From assembly GCA_963920705.1 (NCBI GenBank), contig OY987227.1, forward strand, positions 25,897,935 to 25,961,934: a stretch of DNA of 64,000 nt. The letters are read 5' to 3'. A model generated the notes under the pieces. The model was not told the origin of the DNA. It searched no databases and saw nothing but the letters and a program-made list of their open reading frames with translations. Positions 3,899-62,395 of this stretch are shown piece after piece (position 1 is the stretch's first letter; each line of letters begins with the position of its first letter). The position numbers and the translations under genes are program-made. Source of the DNA: Odiellus spinosus. Its lineage: Eukaryota > Arthropoda > Arachnida > Opiliones > Phalangiidae.

Positions 3899-4205
3899 TT
3901 CAGATTCCATAAGAATATGGGAGGGCCGCGATTCAATAACCATCCTCCCAAACTTTGTAGCAAAAGTTCGTCCGCTTCGAATCGATATTTCAAGTAAATC
4001 GCTCCTGACATCTATTATTAACCCGCGCCACTAACGACCTTGACATAATATTTTGGGTAATAAAAATGGAGCCGACCGAAAAAAGATCTAAGCGTACAAA
4101 TGTTGCGAAAATTGCAGGACGAACTTTTGTTAAAAAGTTTGGGAGGATGGTACCAGAGGCTAAAGCTATGCTCCCATATTCTTATGGAACCTGAATAGAT
4201 TCTTG
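3899..4205 (+). mobile_element. CAAGAATCC-family MITE, copy 1
   Basis: Terminal inverted repeats run from CAAGAATCCATTCAG inward for about 35 bp (through ATATGGGAG) and are mirrored at the right end. A second inner inverted pair contains AAAAGTTCGTCCG. Flanking 7-mers GTATTAT (left) and GTAATAT (right) match at 5 of 7 positions, consistent with an aged 7-bp duplication. The copy at 24300-24613 is inverted relative to this one and keeps a perfect duplication. There is no coding capacity. Length is 307 bp. Confidence 0.85.
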
Positions 4206-4777
4206 GTAATATTGTATTAAATATTTTAGTACGGTCATTTAAATTGAATAAACAATATCAATAAAATTCGTATATAATAAATGCAGAGTAAATGAGATTG
4301 AATAATGAACCTCTAAAGTTTTAAACTGTGTTCTCTTTCGATATCTGACTTAACCGTTTAGGCCTATTTCGTTTTATCGAATGAAATTAGATAATAAAAA
4401 TAAATTCCATCATTTCACTAGATATTCCTATATCCGCGACAAATCTTAGATCTAAAGCGATTACCCATAGCTTAGGGGCCTTTCAAGAAAACACTTAGGA
4501 GGCCCTCATACACAAGACGAACAATCGCGACGATAAAGCAATTGATCGGTGGAACGTTCCTAGGTTAATTTTATAGACAATGTAATATTAAAAAGTGACT
4601 AATATAACAATTTTAAAGGGATATTACCATGATCTTGTCAAAATTTTAATTATGGTTAATTTCGTTCAAGAAGCAAAACTAATTCATATCGTAAAAAAAA
4701 AAATATTTCCGACATTTTAATTTCGAAGTGTCTTCAAAACAAGTTAACCTAGAGTTATAAAATTTTGAATATGCCGT
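4206..4777. other. AT-rich single-copy DNA
   Basis: No gene or repeat copy that I can support. TTTTAAAGGGATATT at about 4612 resembles a TTAAAGGGA terminus but has no partner nearby. Confidence 0.4.
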
Positions 4778-5114
4778 CAGAAGTAGATGAAACCCTCCTT
4801 TGAAGTCTACAACTCTAATGTTTCATATAGCGCTCCTCTCTGTATGGATAAAATTCCCAATTTTACGAGATCGGAGGGGTCCTACTTCATACCCCCTGTC
4901 TACGCAAAATTGGAAATTCTCTCTCTCCACAAACGACGAGGTTTTTTTGACGAACTCCAAGGCTGCTAGAGATATTCGCTCGACGAATTCCCGCTCCGAA
5001 AATATCTACCGTTAGGAGGCGTACGAATCGCGCTTTTTGAAACTAACCCATACAGAGAGGGGTAGACAAGACCATGGAGTAATAGACTTCAAAGGAGGGT
5101 TTCATCGGCTTCTG
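4778..5114 (+). mobile_element. CAGAAG-family MITE, copy 1 (subfamily A)
   Basis: The element starts CAGAAGTAGATGAAACC and ends with the inverted form GGGTTTCATCGGCTTCTG, so its two ends differ by the TA/CC change described in the findings. The outer inverted repeat is about 32 bp; a second inverted pair, CCTCTCTGTATGGGT, lies about 60 bp further in. The interior carries the subfamily A markers GAGATCGGAG and TTTTTGAAACTAACCC. The flanking 7-mers (ATGCCGT and ATATAAA) do not match, so no duplication is retained. Short reading frames inside it recur in every copy and are by-products of the repeat. Confidence 0.9.
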
Positions 5115-5132
5115 ATATAAACCATAGACATT

Positions 5133-5160
5133 CGAAAAAATAGTGACAGCCTCACTTTAA
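5133..5160 (+). mobile_element. Solo right end of a TTAA element (GAGGCTG family)
   Basis: AGTGACAGCCTCACTTTAA matches the right end of the 634-bp element at 39591-40224, which reads GGTGGCAGCCTCACTTTAA. No matching left end is visible, so this is a fragment. Confidence 0.45.
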
Positions 5161-6296
5161 ATATATTATATCAAAGAACGCGATAGTAAAAAAAAAAAAA
5201 AAAAAACATTCATAATTAACGATAGACTTAAAGATAAATGAATATGAATAATTCTGGATTTCCGCTCCCAGGGTAAGACATCTTTTAATTCAAGATTTAT
5301 TTCTTTGACGGTATTAAAAAAAGTCGCGCGAAGCCCTAGTGTCCTTGACCTACGAACGTATCGTTAATCCTAAGATGGAATGGGTGTAACGGAGAGAAAT
5401 GTCATTGTCGATTCAAGAGTCGTAATTTTAAAGAAAGAAAGAAGAAGAAAAAAAAAAGCTTAATGAAGTTGAAAAGAGAAAGAGAGAAAGGTCCCAATTA
5501 CGAGGTAATTTAGAAACTGGAAATTTAATTTGTCTAGTTTTTTTCTCAGCTCCTAAATGAAGAGGAAAAGAATTGCGTGCTTCATATCGCCGGCGTCGAC
5601 GCCTTTTCAGTTAAAAGTCGCTGTATACTAGGTAATCAATGCGATTAGAACGTATTATTAACGGTTGTAAATTTAATAATAAAGTTGCTTATTTTGAGAT
5701 TATGATTTAGAATTAAGATTTCGTACCCGCGATAAATTTAATGGTTTTATTATTTGAATGATATTTAATTATAATAGTGTTTTAACGAATAGTATATTTT
5801 ATCAATGCAATAAGGGTGTATTCTTAAAAGTTAATTTAATTAATGATGTTGCTTATTTTGTGTGTATAAAGATCGTGGTAAAAATAATGCCTTATGATTT
5901 GTAAAATATTTAATTATGTTCATTGTTCTAACGAAGCACGATTGAAATAATTAAACGCCTGATTCATGGCGTCAAAGATCATGTCATAACTTTTTCAATT
6001 ACGCTTAATTAGATGGGGCACTACTTTTAATGATAAAACCCATATCTTTTCAGATTTTTGCTCAAATCAGAGGTACCATGGGTTAATCATGCTTTACTTG
6101 TGGAGTTACTAAAGGTTTTTGGTGTACAGATTTTAAGGAAATGGTTTAAATAACACAATTTACAAATCGCATAAATTAAAATGGCTTATCTACGGTACTC
6201 CAAATAGAAAAATTTAGCTAACAAAATCGAATTATTAAAGTTACAAAGAATATTTTTAATTGAAATCTGTTAATTAACCAATTATGGATAGGGCCT
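5161..6296. other. AT-rich DNA with 19-A run; no gene
   Basis: A run of 19 A lies at 5188-5206. There is a purine-rich patch at about 5430-5490. No gene, terminus pair or repeat copy is otherwise visible. Confidence 0.4.
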
Positions 6297-8037
6297 CGCA
6301 ATTTCTTTGGGAAAAAATCCCCCGGCTATAATCAATTTCTTTGGGAAAAAATCCCCTGCCTATAGTCAATTTCTTTGGGAAAAAAATCCCCTGGCTATAA
6401 TCAATTTCTTTGGGAAAAAAATCCCCTGGCTATAATCAATTTCTTTGGGAAAAAAATCCCCTGGCTATAATCAATTTCTTTGGGAAAAAAATCCCCTGGC
6501 TATAATCAATTTCTTTGGGAAAAAAATCCCCTGGCTATAATCAATTTCTTTGGGAAAAATCCCCTGGCTATAATCAATTTCTTTGGGAAAAATCCCCTGG
6601 CTATAATCAATTTCTTTGGGAAAATCCCCTGGCTATAATCAATTTCATTGGGAAAATCCCCTGGCTATAATCAATTTCTTTGGGAAAAATCCCCTGGCTA
6701 TAATCAATTTCTTTGGGAAAAATCCCCCGGCTATAATAAATTTCTTTGGGAAAAATCCCCCGGCTATAATCAATTTCTTTGGGAAATTTCCCCGGCTATA
6801 ATCAATTTCTTTGGGAAATTTCCCCGGCTATAATCAATTTCTTTGGGAAAAATCCCCTGGCTATAATCAATTTCTTTGGGAAAAATCCCCTGGCTATAAT
6901 AAATTTCTTTGGGAAAAATCCCCGGCTATAATCAATTTCTTTGGGAAAAATCCCCTGGCTATAATAAATTTCTTTGGGAAAAATCCCTGGCTATAATCAA
7001 TTTCTTTGGGAAAAATCCCGTGCCTATAATCAATTTCTTTGGGAAAAATCCCTGGCTATAATCAATTTCTTTGGGAAAAATCCCCTGGCTATAATCAATT
7101 TCATTGGGAAAAAATCCCCTGGCTATAATCAATTTCATTGGGAAAGTCCCCTGGCTAAAATAAATTTCTTTGGGAAAATCCCCTGGCTATAATCAATTTC
7201 TTTGGGAAAATCCCTTGGCTATAATCAATTTCTTTGGGAAAATCCCCTGGCTATAATCAATTTCTTTGGGAAAATCCCCTGGCTATAATCAATTTCTTTG
7301 GGAAAATCCCCTGGCTATAATAAATTTCTTTGGGAAAATCCCTGGCTATAATCAATTTCTTTGGGAAAAAATCCCCTGGCTATAATCAATTTCTTTGGGA
7401 AAAAATCCCCTGGCTATAATCAATTTCTTTGGGAAAAATCCCTGGCTATAATCAATTTCTTTGGGAAAAATCCCTGGCTATAATCAATTTCTTTGGGAAA
7501 AATCCCCTAGCTATAATCAATTTCTTTGGGAAAAAATCCCCTAGCTATAATCAATTTCTTTGGGAAAAAATCCCCTGGCTATAATCAATTTCTTTGGGAA
7601 AAAATCCCCTGGCTATAATCACTTTCTTTGGGAAAAAATCCCCTGGCTATAATCAATTTCTTTGGGAAAAAAATCCCCGGCTATATTCAATTTCTTTGGG
7701 AAAAATCCCCTGGCTATATTCAATTTCTTTGGGAAAAATCCCCTGGCTATAATCAATTTCTTTGGGAAAAATCCCCTAGCTATACTCAATTTCTTTGGGA
7801 AAAAATCCCCTGGCTATAATCAATTTCTTTGGGAAAAATCCCCTGGCTATAATCAATTTCTTTGGGAAAAATCCCCTAGCTATAATCAATTTCTTTGGGA
7901 AAAATCCCCTAGCTATAATCAATTTCTTTGGGAAAAATCCCTAGCTATAATCAATTTCTTTGGGAAAAATCCCTGGCTATAATCAATTTCTTTGGGAAAA
8001 ATCCCCTGGCTATAATAAATTTCTTTGGGAAATCCCT
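6297..8037 (+). repeat. Minisatellite of 32-35 bp units (about 50 copies)
   Basis: The unit reads TTTCTTTGGGAAAAATCCCC followed by TGGCTATAATCAA and repeats without interruption for 1.74 kb. Unit length varies from 32 to 35 bp, mainly through the A run between GGG and TCCC (3 to 7 A). Common variants are CTAGC for CTGGC, ATAATAAA for ATAATCAA, CATTGGG for CTTTGGG, and GGGAAATTTCCC in two adjacent units at about 6780-6830. Neighbouring units share the same variant. Frames such as NPLAIINFFGK run through parts of it on the plus strand, but they break whenever the A run changes length, so I do not regard it as coding. Confidence 0.97.
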
Positions 8038-9640
8038 TAAGATTTTAAAACTAATCAAATTTCCCCAAGGTACGTGCCTCTATTACCCCAACCCTCTAAA
8101 CAGGCATGTATATGCGTACAAACCCTCGTTATTTATCTAAAAGAAGTAGAGTCAATTTAAATTAAAAATTATCAATAATAAACTATAGTCTTACCGTAAT
8201 TCTCACTAGATGTTAAACCCGCAACTAATTAAAATAGAAGACGCGTCCGTTGTGGCCACTTAAGCGTACTAATAATTAATCCTAGGAAATAAGTTTTTAC
8301 GTTTAAAAGTTAAAGAAGAAAACGCGGCTAATTTAAATCCACAGAGAGATTATTTTTAAGTATTTTAAATACGACGAACTCAGGTGAACCGGAACAATTA
8401 CGCTTGGAAATTTTAGAAAAACAAAAGAGGATTTTTTTTTTGTTCCCTTAATGAACATTAAAGAAAGATTGACAGATTTTTTTCCCAATTTTTATGAATT
8501 ATAATATTTAGCGGCTAAAGTCGATTTTTTAAGAACATCCTAAAGCTAATGAGTAACTCGACAGGAAGTCCATTGTCTTTCGACGACGAACCATCGCGCC
8601 TAAAACACGGGATTCGACCCCTGTAGTCGTAACCGGTTGAAAAATTAAAGAAAAAGTGAAATCATCTTATTTTTCTATTAGTTAAACCTAAAAAACAAAT
8701 ATCTTCGGGGGTCAGGGTTCGAATTTCAAAAATCTATTCCCCAAAAACACACCACATGTTTTTATGCTCCATAAAAACCCATTTAAATATAATTTCTTAA
8801 ACTAAAGGCTACTTTTTACACGAATCTGTACATCAACTGAGCGATTATGCAACTGATTTCAGCCTTTAGTAATGCTAAACACGTCGTGAGTTACGCAATC
8901 AGTTTAGTACAGTCAAAACTATAGTCTTGTACAACGATTACGTTGAATGGAAGGTCAAAGTTCGAATTTGCGCCTTTTCAAGTTTCATTAAAAAAATAAG
9001 TAATTGTGGAATTTTATTTTTAAAAACTAATAAGTCTATCAAAACTTTATCAATTTTCTATTGGCTCACTCGAACTTATGTTCAGGTTACGTTGTTGACG
9101 AGAGAAGGAAAATAATTTAGGGAGACCACCATCGGGCCCAGAACTGTCAAACACACCTCTCTTTCGTACCATCCCCTATCACGCTAAGGCCTGTTGATCA
9201 TTCCCTGAATTGTAAAATAACATTTTCAAAACAAGATAAATGAATAGATTCACGGCTCCTTTGAAAACCTAACCCAATTTTGCTTCGGGGCTTTAGTCGC
9301 TAGTTTCAAATTCGAATAGGATCTTCGATTTATTTTTTAATACGAGCGAGCGCAGCCACGGGGGATTCGCGTGGTAAAACGTCGGCTGGGGGTATAGGTT
9401 AATGATAAACGCTATTCAGGGCATAACAGGAAATTAGGTAAAAGTCTTCCAACGAAAAAAAAAAAAAGTGGCCTCGCGCCTGATTAAAGAAAAACAAAGG
9501 CAAAAGCACAGAGCCCTTTTTAGAAAAGTATAAGTTGCCTTTGTTTTTAAGAGCAGTTTAAAGTGAAGATAACATCCAGAAAATTTGGCTGATTCGCGTA
9601 AAATTATCGTTTAATAATATTAAAGGGAAAATGATTGTAA
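8038..9640. other. AT-rich single-copy DNA
   Basis: No supported gene. GGGATTCGACCCCTG at about 8610 and GGGTTCGAATTTC at about 8716 faintly resemble a tRNA B box, but no cloverleaf can be folded around either. Confidence 0.4.
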
Positions 9641-9826
9641 AGCCGCGTTCACACTACAGACTTTGAAACCGTTTTAAACCGTTTTGGAAAGGTCAAATTA
9701 TAAAATTTTGGGGTCATCCGTGTAGATCTTTGACCAAGAAAAAAAAATATGATGCGTGAATCGATGAAGCTTAAAACGATTTATACCATTTAAAATCGAT
9801 TGAGATACGGTAGTGTGAACGTAGCT
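9641..9826 (+). mobile_element. TTCACACT-end MITE, copy 2
   Basis: The ends are AGCCGCGTTCACACTA and TAGTGTGAACGTAGCT, an inverted pair of about 16 bp. The left half (GAAACCGTTTTAAACCG, then GGAAAGGTCAAATTATAAAA and TTTGGGGTCA) matches the complement of the right half of the copy at 42544-42726. Length is 186 bp with no coding capacity. The preceding TTAAAGGGAAAATGA (9620) looks like a stray TTAA-family end. Confidence 0.75.
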
Positions 9827-11323
9827 AATTAATAACTTCAAAATCGACTAATAAATAACGAAGTTATTAATTTTTAAAGTTAATTAAACTGTCTTTTTGG
9901 AAACCACTCCTACTATAAAATATCGAAATTAATACGCCCACAATTTTTATGTCGTAAATTTGATGAAATATAATTATTAAATCGTCGTGTGACTCTAATA
10001 TCGAAGGTGTGGTCTCGCACCACGCTCAAGTAGATGTAAAAATCGAATTTTAAAAATTAGGCCAACTTTGTTCGCCACTGAATTTAGTGCAGAACTGTGG
10101 AACGAATCGGGAAACATTTGTCTTTCAATGAGTTCAATTTCAATATTTTGTTATAATTTAAATAAAAACGTGGAATTACACGAGTCCTTTCTTTAATTTA
10201 TGCTTGCCTGATATCCGTTTTTATCAAAAAATAGCCTTATCTTAGAAATTAACCGCGTTATACGTTCGGATAAAAAAATTCTAAATTTATTTTCGTGAAA
10301 AATAATGAATAAAAAGATGATTTAAAATCTTAGTTTCGTTGTTTTATTTATATTCTTCAAATTAAAAGTCAATTTGAAATATTTTTCTTATATTTTGGAC
10401 TAATTCTGGAAATGTGAATTTTCTTATCCATCGTTATACGTTTGATAACGAGTAGTTCGTAGATAAAGCGCCAAATACTTATCTTCGGGTAAACCTTATA
10501 CTAATATACAAATTTCATTTTTTAGCTCCAAACAATTTATCCGAAAATAAAATATCTTCAGAGTTCTAACTTTTCGTTTACTTTCCCTTTAACACGCGTT
10601 AGATATGTTCCCAGCTGAAGAGTCTTATGGGCGAGGCAAATATAAGTAGTACAATTTTTAGTATAGAAGTATAGCAACGTGAAAATTAAAGCTATATAAT
10701 AACCCACCTTACAAACACCCCCCCTTTTCTTTTGTCTCTCTCACTCATTCTCTTTCACTTTCAGAGGTCTCTTCTCTCGGCTCTACAAGACGTTGCTTTT
10801 AAGACAAAGAGATTGGCGACACGGGGGTTGAAGGGGAGAGCTCGGTAGCCTAAAGGGAACTATTAAAAGAGACTGATTTAAGAGGGCGTTCAAACGACGT
10901 GTCTAAATTGTTGTAAATTTGATTTAAATTGCTAAATGATGTACTTCGCGAGCCTTTAAAGGATGGAGGGGGTGGAGGACGTAAAGGAGTGAGCTGAAAT
11001 TTCAGAGTTAATCTACTATTTAACAGGTCATTGTGTTTAGGGAGACTACAAGTAGTCGTTTAAAAGCAAAGTATTTTACTATTAGCAACGTACAAGAGGA
11101 AAGAAGATTATTGTATACAAATCTAGAAAATGTCGTGAGCTACAGAAACTCGAGATAAAGTTAGAAATGAAGAGTGCCCCAACGTTTCGAATGGAATGTC
11201 TAATCTTTAAAGTTTTGAAATAACACTAAATAAACCAGGCAAATTATACTATTCAGTTACTAGAATTTTATACAGCTCACTTATCTTGATATGTCATTGT
11301 ACAAAGTTGAGAATTTCACACTA
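9827..11323. other. AT-rich single-copy DNA
   Basis: No supported gene. A pyrimidine tract (about 10719-10765) followed by a purine-richer patch at 10800-10870 is the only compositional feature. Confidence 0.4.
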
Positions 11324-14063: not shown

Positions 14064-14401
14064 CAGAAGCCGATGAAACCCTCCTTTGAAGTCTATTACT
14101 TCCGGGTCTTGTCTACCCCTCTCTGTATGGGTTAGTTTCAAAAAGCGCGATTCGAACGCCTCCTAACGGTAGATATTTTCGGAACGGGAGTTCGTCGAGC
14201 GAATATCTCTAGCAGCCTCGGAGTTCGTCAAAAAAACGTCGTCGTTTGTGGAGAGAGAGAATTTCCAATTTTCCGTAGACAGGGGGGTATGAAGTAGGAC
14301 CCCTCCGATCTCGTAAAATTGGGAATTTTACCCATACAGAGAGGAGCGCTATATGGAACATTAGAGTAGTAGACTTCAAAGGAGGGTTTCATCGGCTTCT
14401 G
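14064..14401 (-). mobile_element. CAGAAG-family MITE, copy 2 (subfamily A)
   Basis: Both ends are CAGAAGCCGATGAAACCCTC and its complement. Flanking 7-mers CAGTTAC (14057-14063) and CCGTTAC (14402-14408) match at 6 of 7 positions. The interior has the subfamily A markers (TCCGATCTCG, AGTTTCAAAAAGCGCG). It is inverted relative to copy 1. Confidence 0.95.
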
Positions 14402-16579: not shown

Positions 16580-16969
16580 CAGAGGTATATAATAACCCCC
16601 TTCGGGGGGAAGTATGAAAGCCCCTATACTACCAATGCTAAAAATCACGAACAACAAGAGCCCGCTGCTGACTATCTAGGCCACTAGCTCGCGCTGGACT
16701 TCTCAATGTCGCTACTCTAGTAAATGGTCTTTGTATAAACAAGACGGCTCGATTTGTGTTTAGAACTTCCTGTCTCGGGAGTCAGGCTGTCTGTTAAAAC
16801 GGAGTCGAAGGTTGACTTCAGCTCGCGAGTTCCGGAAGTGTGCGTAGGGAAAATTTAGTGAGGTTCAAAATGGTGTAACTATTTTTTGGGAGTAAAGCGG
16901 TGTGTCGATCTGCCGCGATTTATGCCTACCTTTCATACTTCCCCCGAAAGGGGTTATTATATACCTCTG
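16580..16969 (+). mobile_element. CAGAGG-family MITE, copy 1
   Basis: Terminal inverted repeats CAGAGGTATATAATAACCCC continue through the CTTCGGGG palindrome to GAAGTATGAAAG, about 40 bp, and are mirrored at the right end. A perfect 7-bp duplication GTATAAA lies at 16573-16579 and 16970-16976. Compared with the copies at 33.8 and 62.0 kb this one lacks about 25 bp near 16921, between two GATTT repeats. There is no coding capacity. Length is 390 bp. Confidence 0.95.
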
Positions 16970-20010: not shown

Positions 20011-20348
20011 CAGAAGCCGATGAAACCCTCCTTTGAAGTCTACTACTCTAATGTTCCATATAGCGCGCCTCTCTGTATGGGTAAAATTCACGATCTTACG
20101 AGATCGGAGGGGTTCTACTTCATACCCCCCTGTCTACGGAAAATTGGAAATTCTCTCTCTCCACAAACGACGACGTTTTTTTGACGAACTCTAAGGCTGC
20201 TGGAGATATTCGATCGACGAACTCCCGCTCAGAAAATATCTACCGTTAGGAGGCGTACGAATCGCGCTTTTTGAAACTAACCCATACAGAGAGGGGTAGA
20301 CAAGACCCGGGAGTAATAGACTTCAAAGGAGGGTTTCATCGGCTTCTG
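20011..20348 (+). mobile_element. CAGAAG-family MITE, copy 3 (subfamily A)
   Basis: Both CAGAAGCCGATGAAACC ends are intact. Flanking 7-mers GTAATAT and TTTATAT match at 5 of 7 positions, so the duplication has decayed. The interior is subfamily A (GAGATCGGAG, GAAACTAACCC). Confidence 0.93.
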
Positions 20349-22371: not shown

Positions 22372-22711
22372 CAGAAGCCGATGAAACCCTCCTTTGAAGT
22401 CTACTACCACTCCAATGTTCCATATAGCGGTCCTCTCTGTATGGGTAAAATTCCCAATTTTACGAGTTAGAAGGGGTCCTACTTCATCCCCCCTGTCTAC
22501 GGAAAATTGGAAATTTTCTCTCTCCACAAACGACGACGTTTTTTGGACGAACTCCAAGGCTGCTAGAGATATTCGCTCGACGAACTCCCGCTCCGAAAAC
22601 ATCTACCGTTAGGAGGCGTACGGATCGCGCCTTTTGAGAATAACCCATACAGAGAGGGGTAGACAAGACCCGGGAGTAATAGACTTCAAAGGAGGGTTTC
22701 ATCGGCTTCTG
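22372..22711 (+). mobile_element. CAGAAG-family MITE, copy 4 (subfamily B)
   Basis: Both ends are intact. A perfect 7-bp duplication GTAAAAC lies at 22365-22371 and 22712-22718. The interior has the subfamily B markers GAGTTAGAAGG, GGATCGCGCC and TTTTGAGAATAACCC. Confidence 0.97.
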
Positions 22712-23140: not shown

Positions 23141-23477
23141 CAGAAGCCGATGAAACCCTCCTTTGAAGTCTACTACTCTAATGTTCGATATAGCGCTCCT
23201 CTCTGTATGGGTAAAATTCCCAATTTTACGAGATCGGAGGGGTCCTACTTCATACCCCTTGTCTACGCAAAATTGGAAATTCTCTCGCTCCAAAAACGAC
23301 GACGTTTTTTTGACGAACTCCAAGGCTGCTAGAGATATTCGCTCGACGAACTCCCGCTCCGAAAATATCTACCGTTAGGAGGCGTACGAATCGCGCTTTT
23401 TGAAACTAACCCATACAGAGAGGGGTAGACAAGACCAGGGAGTAATAGACTTCAAAGGAGGGTTTCATCTACTTCTG
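23141..23477 (+). mobile_element. CAGAAG-family MITE, copy 5 (subfamily A)
   Basis: The left end is CAGAAGCCGATG and the right end is CATCTACTTCTG, so here the variant TA dinucleotide is at the right end. A perfect 7-bp duplication ATAATAT lies at 23134-23140 and 23478-23484. The interior is subfamily A. Confidence 0.97.
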
Positions 23478-24299: not shown

Positions 24300-24613
24300 C
24301 AAGAATCCATTCAGGTTCCATAAGAATATGGGAGCATAGCTTTAGCCTCTGGTACCATCCTTCCAAAACTTTGTAACAAAAGTTCGTCCGCAATTTTCGC
24401 AACATTTGTACGCTTAGATCTTTTTTCGGTCGGCTCCATTTTTATTACCCAAAATATTATGTCAAGGTCGTTAGTGGCGCGGGTTAATAGATGTCAGGAG
24501 CGATTTACTTAAAAAATCGATTCGAAGCGGACGAACTTTTGCTACAAAGTTTAGGAGGATGGTTATTGAATCGCGGCCCTCCCATATTCTTATGGAACCT
24601 GAATGGATTCATG
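24300..24613 (-). mobile_element. CAAGAATCC-family MITE, copy 2
   Basis: This is the reverse complement of the copy at 3899-4205 with few differences, including the inner AAAAGTTCGTCCG pair. A perfect 7-bp duplication GTTATAT lies at 24293-24299 and 24614-24620, which fixes the element ends as CAAGAATCC and its complement. There is no coding capacity. Length is 314 bp. Confidence 0.95.
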
Positions 24614-26261: not shown

Positions 26262-26598
26262 CAGAAGCCGATGAAACCCTCCTTTGAAGTCTATTACTCC
26301 CGGGTCTTGTCTACCCCTCTCTGTATGGGTTAGTTTCAAAAGGCGCGATTCGTACGACTCCTAACGGTAGATATTTTCGGAGCGGGAGTTCGTCGAGCGA
26401 ATATCTCTAGCAGCCTTTGGAGTTCATCAAAAAAACGTCGTCGTTTCTGGAGAGAGAATTTTCAGTTTTCCGTAGACAGGGGGGTATGAAGTAGGACCCC
26501 TCCGATTTCGTAAAATTGGGAATTTTACCCATACAGAGAGGAGCTCTATATCGAACATTTGAGTAGTAGACTTCAAAGGAGGGTTTCATCGGCTTCTG
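26262..26598 (-). mobile_element. CAGAAG-family MITE, copy 6 (subfamily A)
   Basis: Both ends are CAGAAGCCGATGAAACC. A perfect 7-bp duplication GTATAGA lies at 26255-26261 and 26599-26605. The interior is mostly subfamily A but carries AGGCGCGATT, which is otherwise the B form. This could reflect recombination between copies or a single parallel change. Confidence 0.97.
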
Positions 26599-27052: not shown

Positions 27053-27494
27053 TTAAAGGGAGGATGCAACCTAACAACAAGTGATTTTTTATCGATTCCT
27101 TATTGTTTAAATAGGCCTAATCCACTACTGAAAATATTTACAAACAAATATTAAACTAGAAATAAATTTAAAACTTACCTTGAAAATAGGCTTAGTGGGA
27201 TTCATGGAGGTCCTGTTTTCCTCGCGTGTAAGGTCTAGCGACCAATCGCGCGCGACGTAAGTCTCGTGGAGATCTCGCGTGAACGACGGGCCTTCGCTCA
27301 TTGGTCGCTAGACCTTACACGGACGCGATTCAGGATCTCCATCAATCCCGCTAAGCCTATTTTCAGGGTAAGTTTTAAATTTTTTTCTAGTTTAATATTT
27401 GTATTGTAAACTTTTTATAGATGGATTAGGCCTATTTAAACGATAAGGAAGATAAAAAAAAATCACTTGTAATTAGGTTGCATTCTCCCTTTAA
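27053..27494 (+). mobile_element. 440-bp TTAA hairpin element, copy 1
   Basis: The element is TTAA-bounded with ends TTAAAGGGAGGATGCAACC and its complement. The two arms, about 190 bp each, are imperfect complements of one another along their whole length (GGCCTAATCCA, AACTAGAAA, AACTTACC, AATAGGCTTAG and GGTCTAGCGACCAAT occur in both). They enclose a loop of about 50 bp that is CpG-rich. It has no coding capacity. TTAA targets are typical of piggyBac-like and Kolobok transposons. Related copies lie at 28522, 38202 (inverted), 46862 and, diverged, 29789. Confidence 0.93.
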
Positions 27495-28521: not shown

Positions 28522-28962
28522 TTAAAGGGAGGATGCAACCTAACAACAAGTGATTTTTTATCGATTCCTTATTGTTTAAATAGGCCTAATCCACTACTGA
28601 AAATATTTACAAACAAATATTAAACTAGAAATAAATTTAAAACTTACCCTGAAAATAGGCTTAGTTATATTCATGGAGCTCCTGATTTCCTCGCGTGTAA
28701 GGTCTAGCGACCAATCGCGCGCGACGTAAGTCTCCTGGAGATCTCGAGTGAACGACGGGCCTTCGCTCATTGGTCGCTAGACCTTACAGGGACGCGATTC
28801 AGGATGTCCATGAGTCCCGCTAAGCCTATTTTCAGGGTAAGTTTTAAATTTATTTCTAGTTTAATATTTGTATTGTAAACTTTTTATCGATGGATTAGGC
28901 CTATTTAAACAATAAGGAATCGATAAAAAAGCACTTGTAATTAGGTTGCATTCTCCCTTTAA
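28522..28962 (+). mobile_element. 440-bp TTAA hairpin element, copy 2
   Basis: Same orientation and structure as copy 1, with TTAA at both ends. Differences from copy 1 are scattered single bases, for example TTATATTCATGG in place of GTGGGATTCATGG in the left arm. The first 150 bp are nearly identical to copy 1, suggesting recent origin or local gene conversion. Confidence 0.93.
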
Positions 28963-28979
28963 ATTAAAAATGAGCCTCC

Positions 28980-30929: not shown

Positions 30930-31267
30930 CAGAAGCCGATGAAACCCTCCTTTGAAGTCTATTACTCCCTGGTCTTGTCTACCCCTCTCTGTATGGGTTA
31001 GTTTCAAAAAGCGCGATTCGTACGACTCCTAACGGTAGATATTATCGGAGCGGGAGTTCGTCGAGCGAATATCTCTAGCAGCCTTGGAGTTCGTCAAAAA
31101 AACGTCGTCGTTTGTGGAGAGAGAGAATTTCCAATTTTCCGTAGACAGGGGGGTATGAAGTAGGACCCCTCTGATCTCGTAAAATTGTGAATTTTACCCA
31201 TACAGAGAGGAGCGCTATATGGAACATTAGAGTAGTAGACTTCAAAGGAGGGTTTCATCTACTTCTG
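30930..31267 (-). mobile_element. CAGAAG-family MITE, copy 7 (subfamily A)
   Basis: The left end is CAGAAGCCGATG and the right end CATCTACTTCTG. A perfect 7-bp duplication GTATTAT lies at 30923-30929 and 31268-31274. The interior is subfamily A. Confidence 0.97.
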
Positions 31268-33811: not shown

Positions 33812-34208
33812 CAGAGGTATATAATAACCCCCTTCGGGGGGAAGTATGAAAGCCCCTATACTACCAATGCTAAAAATCACGAACAACAAGAGCCCGCTGC
33901 TGATTATCTAGACCACTAGCTCGCGCTGGACTTCTCAATGTCGCAACTTTAGTAAATGGTCTTTGTATAAACAAGACGGCTCGATTTGTGTTTAGAACTT
34001 CCTGTCTCGGGAGTCAGGCTGCCTGTTAAAATGGAGTCGAAGGTTGACTTCAGCTCGCGAGTTCCGGAAGTGCGCGTAGGGAAAATTTTGTGAGGTTCAA
34101 AATGGTGTAACTATTTTTTGGGAGTAAAGCGGTGTGTCGATCCGCCGCGATTTACGCCGGGCACTTGTTGTTCGTCGATTTTGCCTACCTTTCATACTTC
34201 CCCCTCTG
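33812..34208 (+). mobile_element. CAGAGG-family MITE, copy 2 (right end truncated inside)
   Basis: The left inverted repeat is complete. At the right end the order is TTTCATACTTCCCC then CTCTG, so about 22 bp of the inverted repeat are missing while the last bases remain. A perfect 7-bp duplication GTGGAAG lies at 33805-33811 and 34209-34215, so the outer boundary is exact. The interior keeps the segment that copy 1 lost. Length is 397 bp. Confidence 0.95.
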
Positions 34209-38201: not shown

Positions 38202-38644
38202 TTAAAGGGAGAATGCAACCTAATTACAAGTGATTTTTTGATGGATTCCTTATCATTTAAATAGGCCTAATCCATCGATAAAAAGTTTACAATACAAATA
38301 TTAAACTAGAAATAAATTTAAAACTTACCCTGGAAATAGGCTTAGTGGGATTCATGGAGATCCTGAATCGCGTCCGTGTAAGGTCTAGCGACCAATGAGC
38401 AAAGGCCCGTCGTTCACGCGAGATCTCCGCGAGACTTACGTCGCGCGCGATTGGTCGCTAAACCTTACACGCGAGGAAAACAGGACCTCCATGAATCCCA
38501 TTAAGCCTATTTTCAGGCTAAGTTTTAAATTTATTTCTAGTTTAATACTTGTTTGTAAATATTTTCAGTAGTGGATTAGTTCTATTTAAACAACAAGGAA
38601 TCGATAAAAAAATCACTTGTTGTTAGGTTGCATTCTCCCTTTAA
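38202..38644 (-). mobile_element. 440-bp TTAA hairpin element, copy 3 (inverted)
   Basis: The whole unit including the asymmetric loop is the reverse complement of copies 1, 2 and 4. The loop segment GAGCAAAGGCCCGTCG here corresponds to CGACGGGCCTTCGCTC in copy 1. TTAA is intact at both ends and the arms complement each other. Confidence 0.93.
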
Positions 38645-38707
38645 GAACAATAAAACGAATTACGAGCAGTGTTTATTTATTATTTTTTGAAGGAAAGAAG
38701 GATTAAC

Positions 38708-41212: not shown

Positions 41213-41549
41213 CAGAAGCCGATGAAACCCTCCTTTGAAGTCTACTACTCCAATGTTCCATATAGCGCTCCTCTCTGTATGGGTAAAATTCCCAATTTTA
41301 CGAGTTAGAAGGGGTCCTACTTCATCCCCCCTGTCTACGGAAAATAGGAAATTCTCTCTCTCCACAAACGACGACGTTTTTTGGACGAACTCCAAGGCTG
41401 CTAGAGATATTCGCTCGACGAGCTCCCGCTCCGAAAATATCTACCGTTAGGAGGCGTACGGATCGCGCCTTTTGAGAATAACCCATACAGAGAGGGGTAG
41501 ACAAGACCCGGGAGTAATAGACTTCGAAGGAGGGTGTCATCGGCTTCTG
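41213..41549 (+). mobile_element. CAGAAG-family MITE, copy 8 (subfamily B)
   Basis: Both ends are intact, with one change in the right repeat (GGGTGTCATC). A perfect 7-bp duplication TTAATAG lies at 41206-41212 and 41550-41556. The interior is subfamily B (GAGTTAGAAGG, GAGAATAACCC). Confidence 0.97.
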
Positions 41550-42860: not shown

Positions 42861-43198
42861 CAGAAGCCGATGAAACCCTCCTTTGAAGTCTATTACTACC
42901 GGGTCTTGTCTACCCCTCTCTGTATGGGTTATTCTCAAAAGGCGCGATCCGTACGCCTCCTAACGGTAGATGTTTTCGGAGCGGGAGTTCGTCGAGCGAA
43001 TATCTCTAGCAGCCTTGGAGTTCGTCCAAAAAACGTCGTCGTTTGTGGAGAGAGAGAATTTCCAATTTTCCGTAGACAGGGGGGGATGAAGTAGGACCCC
43101 TTCTAACTCGTAAAATTGGGAATTGTACCCATACAGAGAGGAGCGCTATATGGAACATTGGAGTAGTAGACTTCAAAGGAGGGTTTCATCGGCTTCTG
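42861..43198 (-). mobile_element. CAGAAG-family MITE, copy 9 (subfamily B)
   Basis: Both ends are intact. A perfect 7-bp duplication ACGTGAC lies at 42854-42860 and 43199-43205. The interior is subfamily B. Confidence 0.97.
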
Positions 43199-44302: not shown

Positions 44303-44349
44303 ATATTCTACTAAGGCACTAATAATTAGGGCTTTTTCTGTATTACAAT

Positions 44350-46861: not shown

Positions 46862-47302
46862 TTAAAGGGAGGATGCAACCTAAAAACAAGTGCTTTTTTA
46901 TCGATTCCTTATTGTTTAAATAGGCCTAATCCACTATTTAAAAAATTTACAAACAAATATTAAACTAGAAATAAATTTAAAACTTACCCTGAAAATAGGC
47001 TTAGTGGGATTCATGGAGCTCCTGATTTACTCGCGTGTAAGGTCTAGCGACCAATCGCGCGCGACGTAAGTCTCCTGGAGATCTCGCGTGAACGACGGAC
47101 CTTTGCTCATTGGTCGCTAGACCTTACACGGACGCGATTCAGGATCTCCATGAGTCCCGCTAAGCCTATTTTCAGGGTAAGTTTTATATTTATTTCTAGT
47201 TTAATATTTGTATTGTAAACTTTTTATCGGTGGATTAGGCCTATTTAAACGATAAGGAATCGATAAAAAATCACTTGTAATTAGGTTGCATTCTCCCTTT
47301 AA
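46862..47302 (+). mobile_element. 440-bp TTAA hairpin element, copy 4
   Basis: TTAA-bounded, same orientation and arm structure as copies 1 and 2, with the same loop. Its right TTAA is only 24 bp before the CAGGGTTG element. Confidence 0.93.
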
Positions 47303-47325
47303 GGAGAAAAAAATATATACTAGAA

Positions 47326-47661
47326 CAGGGTTGCCACAGTTTTTTCAGATACTAATTCCCAGACTTTTCCAGGTTTTTCCCTGGCCTTTTTCCAAAGATT
47401 TTTCCTGACCGTTTCGGCTAATACTACCCAATTTTTAACCTTTTATTTTAAATATAATCGCGTTGGCCAAAACCTTTTGCGTCCATATCTTTGATCTAAT
47501 CTATACAGCTGACACAGTCAGCTTTAAATCTTTTCTGCGGATAATGATTGTAATTCCCTGGCTTCTTGAAAAATCTTTAAATTCCCTGACGTTTTTGGTT
47601 CATTTTCAAATTCCCTGCCTTTCCCTGTTTTTCCTGTTTCCCCTGACCTGTGGCAACCCTG
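47326..47661 (+). mobile_element. Complete CAGGGTTG (hAT-like) MITE
   Basis: Ends CAGGGTTGCCACAG and CCTGTGGCAACCCTG are perfect inverted repeats of about 14 bp. Subterminal regions are filled with direct repeats of TTCCCTGRC-like motifs. The middle contains CAGCTGACACAGTCAGCT. TAGAA lies immediately outside both ends (47321-47325 and 47662-47666), a possible 5-bp duplication, although hAT elements usually leave 8 bp. Length is 336 bp, non-coding. A frame at 47463-47744 is a by-product. Confidence 0.85.
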
Positions 47662-48305: not shown

Positions 48306-48350
48306 AGTATATTTGAACTATTTTTCCTGCTGCATTCTCCCATTACGTAG

Positions 48351-55330: not shown

Positions 55331-55669
55331 CAGAAGCCGATGAAACCCTCCTTTGAAGTCTACTACTCTAATGTTCCATATAGCGCTCCTCTCTGTATGG
55401 GTAAAATTCACAATTTTACGAGTTAGAAGGGGTCCTACTTCATCCCCCCTGTCTACGGAAAATTGGAAATTCTCTCTCTCCACAAACGACGACGTTTTTG
55501 GACGAACTCGAAGGCTGCTAGAGATATTCGCTCGACGAACTCCCGCTCCGAAAACATCTACCGTTAGGAGGCGTACGAATCGCGCCTTTTGAGAATAACC
55601 CATACAGAGAGGGGTAGACAAGACCCGCCCGGAGTAATAGACTTCAAAGGAGGGTTGCATCGGCTTCTG
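55331..55669 (+). mobile_element. CAGAAG-family MITE, copy 10 (subfamily B)
   Basis: Both ends are intact apart from GGGTTGCATC at the right. A perfect 7-bp duplication CTTTCAC lies at 55324-55330 and 55670-55676. The interior is subfamily B, with GAATCGCGCC in place of GGATCGCGCC. A 129-codon minus-strand frame covers the whole element and is only a by-product of its indels. Confidence 0.97.
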
Positions 55670-55676
55670 CTTTCAC

Positions 55677-56639
55677 GAAGATTCGACCAGTGATCTTCAA
55701 CCAAGGCGTAAGATACTTTTTGCGGATTGCCCTGCCTTTAAAATAAGGTTTGAAAAAATACGACCGTAGACTTCTATCGTAATAAACACTCATTCTGATA
55801 AATACCGCGGTAGATTAGAGTTAGAACCACTTTAGGTTTATAGCAAGTACATTTCTAATATCCTGTCTTTCACTTATAGCAAAACTAAATCGTCGCAATA
55901 GTTTGGTACGCGCTAGAAACCAATACAGAAACCTTCGTCTATAGCCAGGTTTTACTCATAAAAATCTCTTATATCAAACGAATTCCCCCCCCCCCCCTCC
56001 CAAAGTAGGGATAATATAAGATTTTCGTGGCGGCGATGATTAATAGAAGTAAAGGCAATTTGACTTAAGTTTGAAGGAACGTTCCACGCCTTTCATTCAT
56101 TGATAATTTCATTTCAAACACACCGGATAACCTTAACGGATGGTATAGGGGCAATAAAACCAGGAGGGAGAGAGAGAGAGGAGAGAAAGAAAGGAAGAGT
56201 TGAACTCCAGTATACCGTCCATGGAACAGCCAATTTATTTTAAGGTCACGAGGTAGTCAATTCCATATAACCATTACACGAAAATTTTCCATCCCCCTTA
56301 TATGGGAATTACTTGTATTTCATTGAACAAATTTATAGTTTTGGAAACAATCCAAAAACTGACTTTTATTTTTTTTTAAAGAACGGCATAAGAAAAAATC
56401 TAAAGAAGGAATGCGAGCCCTTGTTTCCTTAGAGTTCATCTCAAGTAGAGTATACAATAAAAGAAAGTCTACCTTCCATTTGTTATCTGATAGACACACG
56501 GGTTATACAAGTAAAATTACTTATTATACACTCTAGGTGAACAAAATGTTCGAGAATCATTCCAGAAGACGTTTGTCCGCATTATAGGTCGCATCGTTGG
56601 AATGAGAAGTTTCTCCGATCATTCTATATATATCACAAA
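55677..56639. other. Single-copy DNA with a 13-C run
   Basis: C run at 55985-55997 and a GA-rich patch at about 56166-56200. No gene is supported. Confidence 0.4.
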
Positions 56640-56803
56640 AACTACGTTCACACTTGATACTTTGAAACCGTTTTCAAACCGTTTCGAGTCGTCAAATCGA
56701 CTTTTTTAGATATTAATTTGGTTTCTTGATCAAAGGTCTACACGGGTGACCCCAAAATTTTATTATTTGACCTTTCCAAAACAGTTTAAAACGGTTTCAA
56801 AGT
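56640..56803 (-). mobile_element. TTCACACT-end MITE, copy 6, right end lost
   Basis: CTACGTTCACACTTGATA, AAACCGTTTTCAAACCGTTT and TTTGACCTTTCCAAAACAG align with 42544-42726. The right terminus CTAGTGTGAACGCGGCT is missing after TTTCAAAGT. Confidence 0.7.
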
Positions 56804-57651
56804 GGAGCATCAGCTTCGTACTCGTTGCTCATTATGTAAAATAAATATCAATGGTAGACTATAAAGTATAAGCAGAAGAATATTAAGATAAGGGAGACAC
56901 TATTTTAGGCAATTATAAAGTGCTGACCCTCCAACCTCAGTAATTGCGGATAAATTAATTGAATTAATTTTTAACCTCTTTTCTGGTCAGCTCTTATATA
57001 TAAATTTGAACAGTTTTTGGCTGTACTATCGTTCATAAATTTAAGATCTATCTTCACGCCCTGTCTCTAAAGCGTTAGCGAGATACGGTGTTACCCTTTT
57101 CATAATATCTCCTTCTGGTACTAGAATATTCCGTCCCTTACTCAATAAGATACGCGCCATAGAATTAGAATGTGTTGGAACGGAAACTACTTTTGTAAAG
57201 TGGACGCGCTTATAAAATGTCCGAAAACGAGTGGTGCCTGGGGGTGAGTAGAGAAAATTGGCTTAATGGACAGGGACTGTCTCGTTTTTGGATAAAATGG
57301 CAATTAAATGGCTTTTCCGTCTGTACAAGGTCTGTTTTATAAATCTTTATAGTATTTTCTGACAATACGAGTAAACAATGGGCTCTAAGGGAATTCGTAT
57401 AAACAACTAGCTTTCAATCGAATCTAACACTGAATAGAATAGGAAATTTAATTAAAATCTAGTTTATTTCGTAAACATTCAAAATCGAACATTTTATTGG
57501 ATTTTAACCGGTATAACTTTTGTACGAGCTCTGATGAGCATTTAGTAGAATGAGTTCTTTCCCACGAATAATTATTTTTCAATGGGAGAAGTAAATACAA
57601 ATTAAATTTAATTATATTAATTCATACATACTCTCTAAATTTAATTTTTAA
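56804..57651. other. AT-rich single-copy DNA
   Basis: Nothing I can support. Confidence 0.4.
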
Positions 57652-57990
57652 CAGAAGTAGATGAAACCTTCCTTTGAAGTCTACTACTCTAATGTTCGAT
57701 ATAGCGCTCCTCTCTGTATGGGTAAAATTCCCAATTTTACGAGATCGGAGGGGTCCTACTTCATCCCCCCTGTCTACGGAAAACTGGAAATTCTCTCTCT
57801 CCACAAACGACGACGTTTTTTTTTGACGAACTCCAAGGCTGCTAGAGATATTCGCTGGACGAACTCCCGCTCCGAAAATATCTACCGTTAGGAGGCGTAC
57901 GAATCGCGCTTTTTGAAACTAACCCATACAGAGAGGGGTAGACAAGACCCGAGAGTAATAGACTTCAAAGGAGGGTTTCATCGGCTTCTG
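57652..57990 (+). mobile_element. CAGAAG-family MITE, copy 11 (subfamily A)
   Basis: The left end is CAGAAGTAGATGAAACC and the right end CATCGGCTTCTG. Flanking 7-mers TTTTTAA and CTTTTAA match at 6 of 7 positions. The interior is subfamily A. Confidence 0.95.
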
Positions 57991-60073
57991 CTTTTAACTA
58001 TAAAGAGACGCTGGAAACTTATTTTTGTTCTTGTTTCTCTGGCTTACCTACAGACCTATACTTTACAGGTTGGTTCATAACTAGGCTAATTGTAGCAAAG
58101 ACTAACTAGCGAGGGATACCGCCTACCGGACTAAGACCAACTTTTAGATCAACTCCTACGTTGCTTAAATATTGCATACTCTTCTTGAACTTGAACACTA
58201 ACATATTTTCTTTTATACGATTATTAGAATAAGCGCCACTGAAGCTGGCTAGTCTTACAGGCCGATTTAAGTTGGCCGTGACCAGACGCTTTGGTACGCG
58301 TCGCTGAAGACGGCCATTGTGTAATAAAACGATAGTTCATTTGTGAGACAAAATTAGCGAGAAGAAATTACCTGCAACGGCGTGCACTTTTGAAAAGTTC
58401 AAGGTTTGTTTACTTTCACAAGTCATTAATCATGTGACAAGACCTTTTTCTTTAAAAGTATAGCTATAGTACGAGTACACGTACTCATTCTTCGTTCGTT
58501 TTCTCTCGTGTTTGCATGACTAAATTACGCTATATTTGCTTAACCCATTGCATTAAATAGTCTACCTATTCAGGGATAGAAATAACTTCATATTCGAAGT
58601 TATTAAAAATAAATATTTGCCCCGGGCAATATCTAGGAGAACACGTCACTGCGCTATTTGGAAATCCAAATTTTTTGTTAAGAATACAATGACGTTGTTT
58701 CATCCAATGCGCGCGCAGGTTATCGTTGTCAAGCTCATCCCTGTGCAAATTAATTTTGCCTCAGACTCAAGATGTGGTTTGTGGTTCTAATTGACCGATT
58801 GACCCCTGACGATCTAAAAAGGTGCCTAATTAATGCCTAAATTTAAATAACATTTCTTTGAAATACAAACAATACTATCTACAAAATTTAAACAACAAAA
58901 ACCAAAACTATTTCAACGTTTACTTCAAAATAACTTAAAGTCAAATGCTTCAAGATTCAAGACTGTTTTGAGTTTTTCTAAAAAAAATACTACAAAATTA
59001 GCATTTTCAGAACCTACTTATAAATTCCTATGAGAATTAGTATATAAGGTATCCCTGCGCCATACCTTTCACGGTGCTGAAACAACCTAATTTCAACTAT
59101 ACTACCTTCGAAAAAAACCTTCTTTCATTCTTACAAGGGAGTTTAAAACTACGTAAACTTGAAAAATTCTGAGAATTTTTTTTTAAGCGATGGGATATAA
59201 CGCTAGGGCGCAAATTACTTACGCGTGTCAACCCAACTAGACAAGTATCTAAGCGTAAGCGGAAGAAAGAGAAAAAAAAAGCGGGCTTATTACTTAAGTC
59301 ATCCGAGAAACTCTGGGATGTGCGTGTACGTGTAAAAGTAAGAACGCAAACGAGATGGCTGGGTCGGGGGTTACGGGAGAAAAAAAAATACCAACCCTCT
59401 GAACATAATTTGATTAAACCCCAAACAAAGTTAAAGAAGCTGTGTTGAAGAAAGACTAGGATATATGTAAGGAAGAGAAGGAAAAAAAAAATGTATATAA
59501 GCTTCAATATCTCCTATCTATACGCGGGAGAAAATTGTTCTGACCTTAAGCGGTGAATTTTTATATTAAAATGGACGCACCATATTGAGTAGAAGAAAGA
59601 TCGTTAAAGTTTACTCTCCTTCGCAAAACCCAGTTGCCTGCTCTTTTCATTTTAATATCAGTGGGAGCTAGATAGACGTACAGATCTTAAGAGGTTCAGG
59701 ATAGTAGTGAAGAACTAACAGTACTAAAGGGATCTCTATTTTAAAAGGGCAGTGAAACCAACCAACATTTAAAATTTATATTTTTAAAACTTGTTTGGAG
59801 TAGAGGAATCTCTCAAGAGACTATCCGTGGACATACCCATACCTTCGATAATTCAATGAGAAATTGTAACACTAAAGATATCTTATGTCTTTTGTGACGT
59901 TAAATTTAGTTAATATAACACAATTGTGTAGAAATTTGATTATTTTTGGGCCCTGTTTTAAAACTGAAAAAATAATTCGTTCTCATTTATCCTTATGTGG
60001 AAGGATATTCAATACACTCCGTTATGCCGTCATTATAACGGTAAAGGTAATTGTTATGGTATCCTTATAATTA
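57991..60073. other. Single-copy DNA without supported genes
   Basis: The 136-codon minus-strand frame at 59097-59507 is the longest in the window. It lies in a pyrimidine-biased strand and is dominated by F, L, S and R. I regard it as a composition artefact. No repeat copy is visible. Confidence 0.4.
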
Positions 60074-60487
60074 CTGCTAAGTTATGATTAATTGGAATTT
60101 AATTGTCAATACCAGAAGCCGATGAAACCCTCCTTTGAAGTCTATTACTCCCGGGTCTTGTCTACCCCTCTCTGTATGGGTTATTCTCAAAAGGCGCGAT
60201 TCGTACGCCTCCTAACGGTAGATGTTTTCGGAGCGGGAGCTCGTCGAGCGAATATCTCTAGCAGCCTTGGAGTTCGTCCAAAAAACATCGTCGTTGGTGG
60301 AGAGAGAGAATTTCCAATTTTCCGTAGACAGGGGGGATGAAGTAGGACCCCTTCTAACTCGTAAAATTGGGAATTTTACCCATACAGAGAGGAGCGCTAT
60401 ATGGAACATTGGAGTAGTAGACTTCAAAGGAGGGTTTCATCGGCTTCTGCTGTATGTTATGATTGATTGGAATTTAATTGTCAACAC
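60074..60487. repeat. Direct repeat of about 38 bp bordering a MITE
   Basis: The left unit runs from CTGCTAA at 60074 through GTTATGATTAATTGGAATTT to GTCAATAC at 60112. The right unit runs from CTGTAT at 60450 through GTTATGATTGATTGGAATTT to GTCAACAC at 60487. The last 32 bp of the units match at 30 positions. The MITE at 60113-60449 sits exactly between them. Confidence 0.85.
60113..60449 (-). mobile_element. CAGAAG-family MITE, copy 12 (subfamily B)
   Basis: Both ends are CAGAAGCCGATGAAACC. The adjacent 7-mers TCAATAC and CTGTATG do not match. Instead the element sits between two direct repeats of about 38 bp. The interior is subfamily B. A 119-codon frame through it is a by-product. Confidence 0.95.
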
Positions 60488-61783
60488 GGTATGTGTATTA
60501 AAATTGAACTGTAAAGATTTCACCTGCCCTTTAAACACTTTTGGAGAACGCCCGAAACAAAAAAAAATGAATTATTTATGACTTCATTACCTTACGCTTG
60601 AATTACGTATTTTTTTTTTATTTATTCCGAAGTATAGTTTAGGTTAAGCTACAAGACGGTGAAAGTCATAGTTCGTCAGGGCTAGACTTTTAAAGCTTAG
60701 TGAAGTAATTTTATAAGGAAGAGGCCTCAAAAAAGGGGTGTTTCCTTTTCCTGAGAGGTTGGAGATTTCTGAGTAGTCACGTTTGCGGAGAGACATTTAA
60801 TAAAAAAGAAAGCAAGTAAGGTGTAAAACGCTGCTGATAATTTGATAAGACAATCCCACCTATCATAAGCTCCATTTACATTAATCCTTTTAACGCGAAT
60901 AGTATCTTAAGAGGATGCCCCATTACGTCGGAAGGATGCAAAACTATGCGTAAAATTCTGAGGGGATAAAACGGCCTGTCGTTATGGTATAAGAGCGCCT
61001 CTATAATAAGAAGCCAAAGGGCATAATGGCTTTCGGCCGTTTCAGGGTGATCCAAAAATTTTTTGGAAGGATTAAACGACTCTTAAACTTATTCGACTAT
61101 AGCGCCTCCTTTTTTGAGAGCTTGAAACTATCCAGAAAAAAAAAAACATGGATGGAAAAATTCTTCTCCAGAGGTTTGCATTAGAGAACCTTTGGACTCT
61201 TTCCGCTAATAGACCAAGAAGGAACCGTCACTTGCTTAATGGGGTTTGTCCAAAAGTCGCGCTAAGCGTATGACTAACTATACAATCCGTTACATGCTTA
61301 AAAATCAACTTTTGACGTACAAAATAAGAGGTTTTACTGGATAAAATCTTGAGTTTTAAGACTGTTAACAGATTTAGCGAACCCCCGTTCCTCGATTCAA
61401 ATCCCACGGGGTAATATCCTTTTATTTGGGATTTTTTTCATCTTAAGGGAAAGTAGCCTAGTTTCCAGATGGATTAGGATTTAAATTATAAATGGTAGAA
61501 ACGCAAAAGGAATTGGAATTTAAAAATGGAACAAAAAGAGACCCCAAACAAAGTCACGGTAACGTTGTTTAACAATCCGACTCAGGTTGGGTTATTTTGA
61601 TAACTCGTCTTGAACAAAAGAATGAGATGATCAAATTTAATTACTGTAGAGGTGAATTGAAATACTACTTTTCGTCCTATGAGGCCCGGGCCCCGTAATT
61701 AGGGTTAATATAAGAATCCGATCACGTGATTTATAATGACTGCAATCGAAAGTATGACCAAAAACCTAGTTTTCAAACGCGCT
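60488..61783. other. Single-copy DNA without supported genes
   Basis: CCCCGT and ACGGGG around GATTCAAATCCC at about 61383-61411 form a short hairpin that superficially resembles a tRNA T-arm, with no other tRNA part nearby. Confidence 0.4.
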
Positions 61784-61858
61784 TCTAAATAATAGTTCGT
61801 GTCTGCGGATGCGGAGGGAAGAGTGATATTTTTTCATCGCTCTGCCTACGCTAGACCG
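61784..61858 (+). repeat. Interspersed repeat fragment X, copy 2
   Basis: Aligned with 31275-31345, sharing CGCTT, ATAGTTCGTGTCTGC and a CTGCYTACGCT end. Outside this stretch the two places do not match. Confidence 0.65.
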
Positions 61859-61970
61859 TGAGTCTCCAGACTAGAGATATTCGCGGGGTATGATTACCTC
61901 TCTATAAAAGAATTGTGTGTTTGAGAACCTGTTTTCTACAGGCATATAGGCAGGAAAATATACATATAAC

Positions 61971-62388
61971 CAGAGGTATATAATAACCCCCTTCGGGGGG
62001 AAGTATGAAAGCCCCTATACTACCAATGCTAAAAATCACGAACAACAAGAGCCCGCTGTTGACTATCTAGGCCACTAGCTCGCGCTGGACTTCTCAATGT
62101 CGCTACTCTAGTAAATGGTCTTTGTATAAACAAGACGGCTCGATTTGTGTTTAGAACTTCCGGTCTCAGGAGTCAGGCTATCTGTTAAAATGGAGTCGAA
62201 GGTTGACTTCAGCTCGCAAGTTCCGGAAGTGCGCGTAGGGAAAATTTAGTGAGGTTCAAAATGGTGTAACTATTTTTTGGGAGTAAAGCGGTGTGTCGAT
62301 CCGCCGCGATTTACGCCGGGCACTCGTTGTTCGTCGATTTTGCCTACCTTTCATACTTCCCCCCGAAGGGAGTTATTATATGCCTCTG
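61971..62388 (+). mobile_element. CAGAGG-family MITE, copy 3 (full length)
   Basis: Both inverted repeats are complete (CAGAGGTATATAATAACCCC and, at the right, TTCGGG-containing complement). A perfect 7-bp duplication ATATAAC lies at 61964-61970 and 62389-62395. At 418 bp it is the longest and apparently most complete copy. Its interior includes AGTTCCGGAAGTGCGCG and the GCACTCGTTGTTCGTCG segment lost from copy 1. Confidence 0.96.
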
Positions 62389-62395
62389 ATATAAC

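Follow-up and report, generated by a model that had tools for sequence, protein, structure and literature searches.

Two elements of the P superfamily described from Drosophila duplicate 7 bp of target DNA upon insertion, i.e., Galileo, which inserts at GTANTAC within a 15-bp palindrome, with three 8-bp copies recorded in D. willistoni (PMC4168063, PMC2775673), and 1360, with the target GTTNAAC; the P element duplicates 8 bp at GTCCGGAC (PMC3276498). The hAT element hobo inserts at GTNCGNAC, and 1,196 of 1,198 insertions have an 8-bp duplication (PMC3276498). The P-type miniature inverted-repeat transposable elements (MITEs) of Anopheles gambiae have terminal inverted repeats (TIRs), 8-bp duplications and 44 to 571 copies per family (PMC1562414), Dada elements lack TIRs and insert in small RNA genes with 6-7 bp duplications (PMC3706591), and in a root-knot nematode 7-bp duplications are reported for an inverted-repeat element of 936 bp that is unclassified (PMC3169594). 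Here we analyze three MITE families, termed A, B and C, in a window of 64,000 nucleotides from the harvestman Odiellus spinosus (assembly GCA_963920705.1, contig OY987227.1; G000:C3:25897935-25961934) together with the 443 Mb of the genome (286 contigs), and we find that the three families were probably mobilised by 1360/Galileo-like transposases of the P superfamily, of the kind that duplicates 7 bp.

An earlier note on this DNA listed 12 copies of family A (CAGAAG ends), three of B (CAGAGG ends) and two of C (CAAGAATC ends), all of which were located in the window, with lengths of 337–340 bp, 390–418 bp and 314–317 bp, respectively; the only correction is that the first copy starts at 3889 and not at 3899. 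All 17 copies start with CA and end with TG as noted, and the majority sequences of the families have in common a single 13-base match between B and C (E 0.48–0.64), which agrees with the reported lack of interior likeness. A 129-residue reading frame over one A copy gave no Pfam match. A, B and C are thus MITEs: short, non-coding elements with TIRs, target duplications and high copy number. When up to three mismatches were allowed, the TIR pattern of A was counted 26,471 times in the genome and that of C 5,740 times (reversed-pattern controls, 0), which suggests about 13,000 elements of A and 2,900 of C if both ends are usually kept; by this count, family A alone would make up about 1% of the genome, and its density in the window is about six times the genome mean. 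The figure for B, 1,315 first-look candidates, is not a pattern count, and the same kind of figure for A (1,800) is far too low. Mean identity to the family majority is 0.979 for A (32 copies), 0.984 for B (4) and 0.988 for C (22), values that may overstate likeness as most of these copies are best matches. A C variant of 710–740 bp also exists (L066 and L067; loci from elsewhere in the genome are numbered with the prefix L), with 106 first-look candidates, 40 of them scored, and its two longest reading frames have no Pfam match over cut-off.

The families have the duplication length in common. Exact 7-bp duplications flank 11 of the 17 window copies, as the earlier note reported; the copies at 14064, 57652 and 3889 have a duplication with one mismatch, and those at 4778, 20011 and 60113 were scored as having none. 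By chance, random pairs of 7-mers at similar spacing in the window were identical in 127 of 200,000 draws. The census was taken over 84 copies, comprising those of the window, 20 each of A, B (ends only) and C from elsewhere and copies in other loci, where the copies from outside the window were those most similar to a window copy rather than a random sample. Exact 7-bp duplications were found for 24/33 A, 19/25 B and 16/26 C copies, and duplications with one mismatch for 4, 3 and 7, respectively. One C insertion is present twice, and with the duplicate dropped the 83 distinct insertions divide into 58 with exact duplications, 14 with one mismatch and 11 others. When other lengths were examined, none of the 84 copies had an exact duplication of 4, 5, 6, 8, 9 or 10 bp. 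The long C variant was excluded from the census; its flanks in L066 and L067 have, by eye, two and one mismatches in 7. Joined flanks of A, B and C gave no empty sites in the DNA examined, a single C hit being the window site itself.

A scan for CA...TG elements with at least 14/20 matching TIR bases and exact, non-palindromic duplications, covering the window, L001, L022–L043, L064 and L065 (about 280 kb), gave two hits at 5 bp, none at 6 bp, 16 at 7 bp, three at 8 bp (all P elements), one at 9 bp and 145 at 10 bp, the last all in one satellite of L037. Three of the 16 hits at 7 bp are element types other than A, B and C. The longest, L034:2251-3489, has 1,239 bp, perfect 37-bp TIRs (CATGAGTGAATC...), the duplication GTTAAAG and a 157-residue frame with no Pfam match; L029:1162-1471 is a further type, with the duplication ATATAAC; and L040:6778-7107 is another MITE type (CAAGAATAGATTTAAC...) with the duplication GTGGTAT and C-like ends. 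Among the loci examined only the last has a relative, at L024:9043-9323, which is split by an 8-bp P element.

With respect to the target, the tally of the earlier note is correct: among its 11 duplications six start with GT, four end with AC and nine have one or both. The bias holds beyond base composition, since in the 47 exact insertions new to that note 34 of 94 half-sites have GT or AC, versus a flank background of 4.7% (binomial p 2.5e-21, half-sites treated as independent), and it is seen in each family separately (A 9/34, p 2.1e-5; B 14/32, p 6.1e-11; C 11/28, p 2.8e-8). The symmetric target GTNNNAC proposed from this bias is nevertheless a simplification, in that the full motif occurs in only 9 of the 58 exact insertions. 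Of the 116 half-sites of these insertions, 98 have T at position 2 or A at position 6, and 85/118 half-sites (counted before the duplicate C insertion was dropped) have a purine at 1 or a pyrimidine at 7; the target is better written RTANTAY. Outside the duplication, the third base is T on the left or A on the right in 22/34 new half-sites of A and 26/32 of B, and in 11/28 of C (p 0.21, near the 31% background; 14 new exact insertions). The core preference is thus common to the three families, and the outer one is not evident for C.

The ends appear to be built in two tiers. The majority sequence of B has 41-bp TIRs and an inner repeat in which 62–85 pairs with 347–371, at distances of 61 and 47 bp from the respective ends. 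The ends of A form an imperfect 72-bp TIR (78%), and in a C copy bases 1–92 match 228–314 at 80%, with an inner repeat placed by eye about 55 and 51 bp in from the ends (the automated repeat step gave only a 7-bp pair). P elements combine TIRs with inner inverted repeats, and their transposase sites are spaced differently at one end than at the other (PMC7776569); A, B and C may resemble them in this architecture, the comparison of which was confined to the P superfamily. We propose that A, B and C are cut-and-paste DNA transposons that are non-autonomous and depend on a transposase supplied in trans, which would bind the TIR and the inner repeat at both ends and cut out the element, the ends would be joined to the two strands of the partly palindromic target RTANTAY 7 bp apart, within TANRTANTAYNTA for A and B, and gap repair would yield the 7-bp duplication.

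The suggestion of the earlier note that one related group of transposases moved all three families is plausible in view of the shared ends, duplication length and core target. A single transposase for A, B and C is, however, doubtful because the outer target bases common to A and B are lacking in C; one enzyme may have served both A and B, and a related one C. This also bears on the possibility that different transposases were involved, one (perhaps of the P superfamily) for A and B and another for C, which overlaps with the assignment to the P superfamily if both are of that kind. Besides the outer bases, the ends of C, which by eye resemble those of the 7-bp element L040:6778-7107 (CAAGAATAG), speak for separate enzymes, but duplication length, CA...TG ends and core target are common to all three families, and C is represented by only 14 new exact insertions; we consider this alternative less likely than not.

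P-superfamily transposases are present in the genome, with at least 68 matches to PF12017 and at least 71 to PF21789, the profile-search counts being lower bounds. L033 encodes 929 residues, in which a THAP, an HTH, two RNase H and a GTP-binding domain exceed their cut-offs, and its match to the transposase chain of the fly P element has E 8.3e-88; the P C-terminal family stays below its own cut-off. In a tree of 16 domain fragments from 10-kb P loci, where long branches meet and the deeper joins are unsure, one supported clade comprises L022–L026, named THAP9-like as L022 and L023 match PF22824, a second supported clade comprises L032, L033, L036–L039 and L041, and L029–L031 group with L034 at weaker support. 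Together with its kin, the first clade covers 11 loci (L011 and L017–L026) and includes seven insertions with exact 8-bp duplications (ATTTCAGC, GTTTGAAC, ACTTTAAC, GTTATAAC, GATGTGAC, GTTATACC and GTTCCATT); no complete pair of ends was identified in the other four loci. P elements with CA...TG ends have 8-bp duplications, e.g., GTTATAAC and GTTTGAAC, and the flanks of the P element in L024, when joined, match an uninterrupted relative in L040 at 93%, i.e., an empty site. Three of the seven loci in the second clade, L033, L036 and L039, have CAAGG/CAACG-type ends and exact 9-bp repeats (CCAAGGCTT, GACGGAGTT and ACCAAGTTT). The 9-bp scan also yields chance pairs, and the TIRs are weak here (4 to 6 of 10 bases), but the three loci are credible because they share the CAAGG ends. 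A pair of TGACGTCA in L037 was rejected as an 8-bp duplication, the stretch recurring at both ends of L033 and L039.

Two further elements touch on this group. L064:2417-2893 is a 477-bp inverted-repeat element with CAAGG ends and, by eye, 8 of 9 matching flank bases, and L028:2157-8977 (6.8 kb) has a perfect 40-bp TIR (CAAAGACTATC...), an exact 9-bp repeat (CATTATCTT) and P-transposase matches inside.

Several observations weigh against the likely but unproven assignment of A, B and C to the P superfamily. No transposase was met between A, B or C ends in 20 P loci of 10 kb and a number of short loci, a set that leaves out most other P matches, and the P elements with definable ends duplicate 8 bp (seven insertions) or apparently 9 bp (three), none 7 bp. 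In a scan of L001–L043 with the 21-base TIRs, the closest stretch other than the A MITE in L040 had 5 mismatches (best values, 5 to 7), and an inner repeat followed by another interior was met at one place for B and at none for C; these patterns would miss a master that shares more of the MITE interior or has diverged inner repeats. Nucleotide comparison of A, B and C with the 20 P loci returned only an A MITE in L040, as did a comparison at the protein level between the P loci and A, B, C and the long C variant, and CA...TG and duplication scans around P reading frames revealed no A, B or C master. The lack of the outer target bases in C counts on the same side, as does the fact that a palindromic target with GT...AC halves, though found for A, B and C, is shared by hobo and thus not diagnostic for P, in a genome that also holds hAT transposases. 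The autonomous partners from different superfamilies that the earlier note had considered were not met, no autonomous partner of any kind having been found.

Several candidates were set aside in the course of this search: a B-like stretch at L022:3561 is internal to a P element rather than terminal, a 7-bp candidate at the P frame of L034 (ATAATTT, 9/12 TIR bases) is AT-rich and by rough estimate about what chance would give over the scanned loci, and the pairs of C ends about 5 kb apart in L064 and L065 are in each case two separate MITEs.

The main rival to a P transposase is a hAT transposase, which would have moved the families with an unusual stagger of 7 bp instead of 8 bp. Such transposases are abundant (at least 150 matches to PF05699, comprising every one of the 150 candidates scored out of 220), CA ends and a NTNNNNAN target are usual for hAT elements, and the target taken alone fits the hobo preference for GTNCGNAC as well as it fits P. 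Nevertheless, hAT duplications are of 8 bp, rarely 5 or 6 bp, and those of hobo are nearly always of 8 bp, whereas none of the 84 census copies is exact at that length; of the three families only B fits the hAT end motif, YARNG. We therefore regard a hAT origin as unlikely. Among the published descriptions compared, the P superfamily is the only match when duplication length and target are taken together, and a P transposase is probably the mover. The view of the earlier note that the elements may not match a well-described superfamily is not supported, and a poorly described one is not required, as Galileo and 1360 fit in length and target. A new superfamily with a fixed 7-bp stagger would agree with the failure to find a transposase with A, B or C ends and with the three further 7-bp CA...TG elements, yet both length and target are on record for the P superfamily, which the end architecture may also resemble, and this explanation is very improbable. 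Of the two 7-bp cases that the earlier note named, P fits, and Dada, in spite of its 6-7 bp duplications, can practically be dismissed, since its members, found in small RNA genes, have none of the TIRs that are long in A, B and C.

If the families were moved by P transposases, the genome might hold P clades with three staggers, i.e., 8 bp in the THAP9-like clade, 9 bp in the CAAGG-ended clade and 7 bp in the masters of A, B and C, which have not been seen; we put forward only tentatively that strand-transfer spacing can evolve and that its changes could be traced within a single family of transposases. The genome lets P-type stagger length be compared across clades, and the integration footprint would assign orphan MITE families of high abundance to a superfamily that is already known.

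Positions of the MITE copies in the window and of the P loci with 9-bp repeats
Feature	Position	Strand	Flanking duplication
C, 317 bp	3889..4205	-	GTATTAT/GTAATAT, 1 mismatch
A, 337 bp	4778..5114	+	none
A	14064..14401	-	1 mismatch
B, 390 bp	16580..16969	+	GTATAAA
A	20011..20348	+	2 mismatches in 7, scored as none
A	22372..22711	+	GTAAAAC
A	23141..23477	+	ATAATAT
C, 314 bp	24300..24613	+	GTTATAT
A	26262..26598	-	GTATAGA (+ strand reading)
A	30930..31267	-	GTATTAT (+ strand reading)
B, 397 bp, shortened 3' end	33812..34208	+	GTGGAAG
A	41213..41549	+	TTAATAG
A	42861..43198	-	ACGTGAC (+ strand reading)
A	55331..55669	+	CTTTCAC
A	57652..57990	+	1 mismatch
A	60113..60449	-	none
B, 418 bp	61971..62388	+	ATATAAC
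P locus, CAAGG-type ends	L033:3587-7379		9 bp
P locus, CAAGG-type ends	L036:2235-6938		9 bp
P locus, CAAGG-type ends	L039:2271-6252		9 bp

Other repeats in the window are a 336-bp element at 47326–47661 with a perfect 14-base TIR (CAGGGTTGCCACAG) and the 5-bp repeat TAGAA, minisatellite arrays at 6305–8000 whose units measure about 33 and 35 bp, and a four-copy repeat, about 440 bp long and containing inverted repeats (27053–27494, 28522–28963, 38203–38645 and 46862–47303).

Compared with the known systems, hobo-type hAT elements have the GT...AC target halves seen here but 8-bp duplications. For the Anopheles P-MITEs the likeness of the ends to those of their masters has been demonstrated, whereas A, B and C duplicate 7 bp, A and C number thousands of copies and the master was not found. 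Our literature search, which did not reach Repbase or most papers, met no 7-bp P elements outside Drosophila, and no priority is claimed; if A, B and C are of the P type, the 7-bp branch described for Drosophila would extend to another lineage. Galileo differs from the present families in its very long repeats, with 191 copies characterised in D. willistoni, and in its outer target motif AANGT, and 1360 (Hoppel) of D. melanogaster in a tendency to ANAGT, in contrast to TANRT for A and B. By description rather than by sequence, however, these two P-superfamily elements are the closest counterparts, 1360 in its 7-bp duplication and GTTNAAC target, and Galileo in duplication length, target, inverted repeats and many non-autonomous copies.

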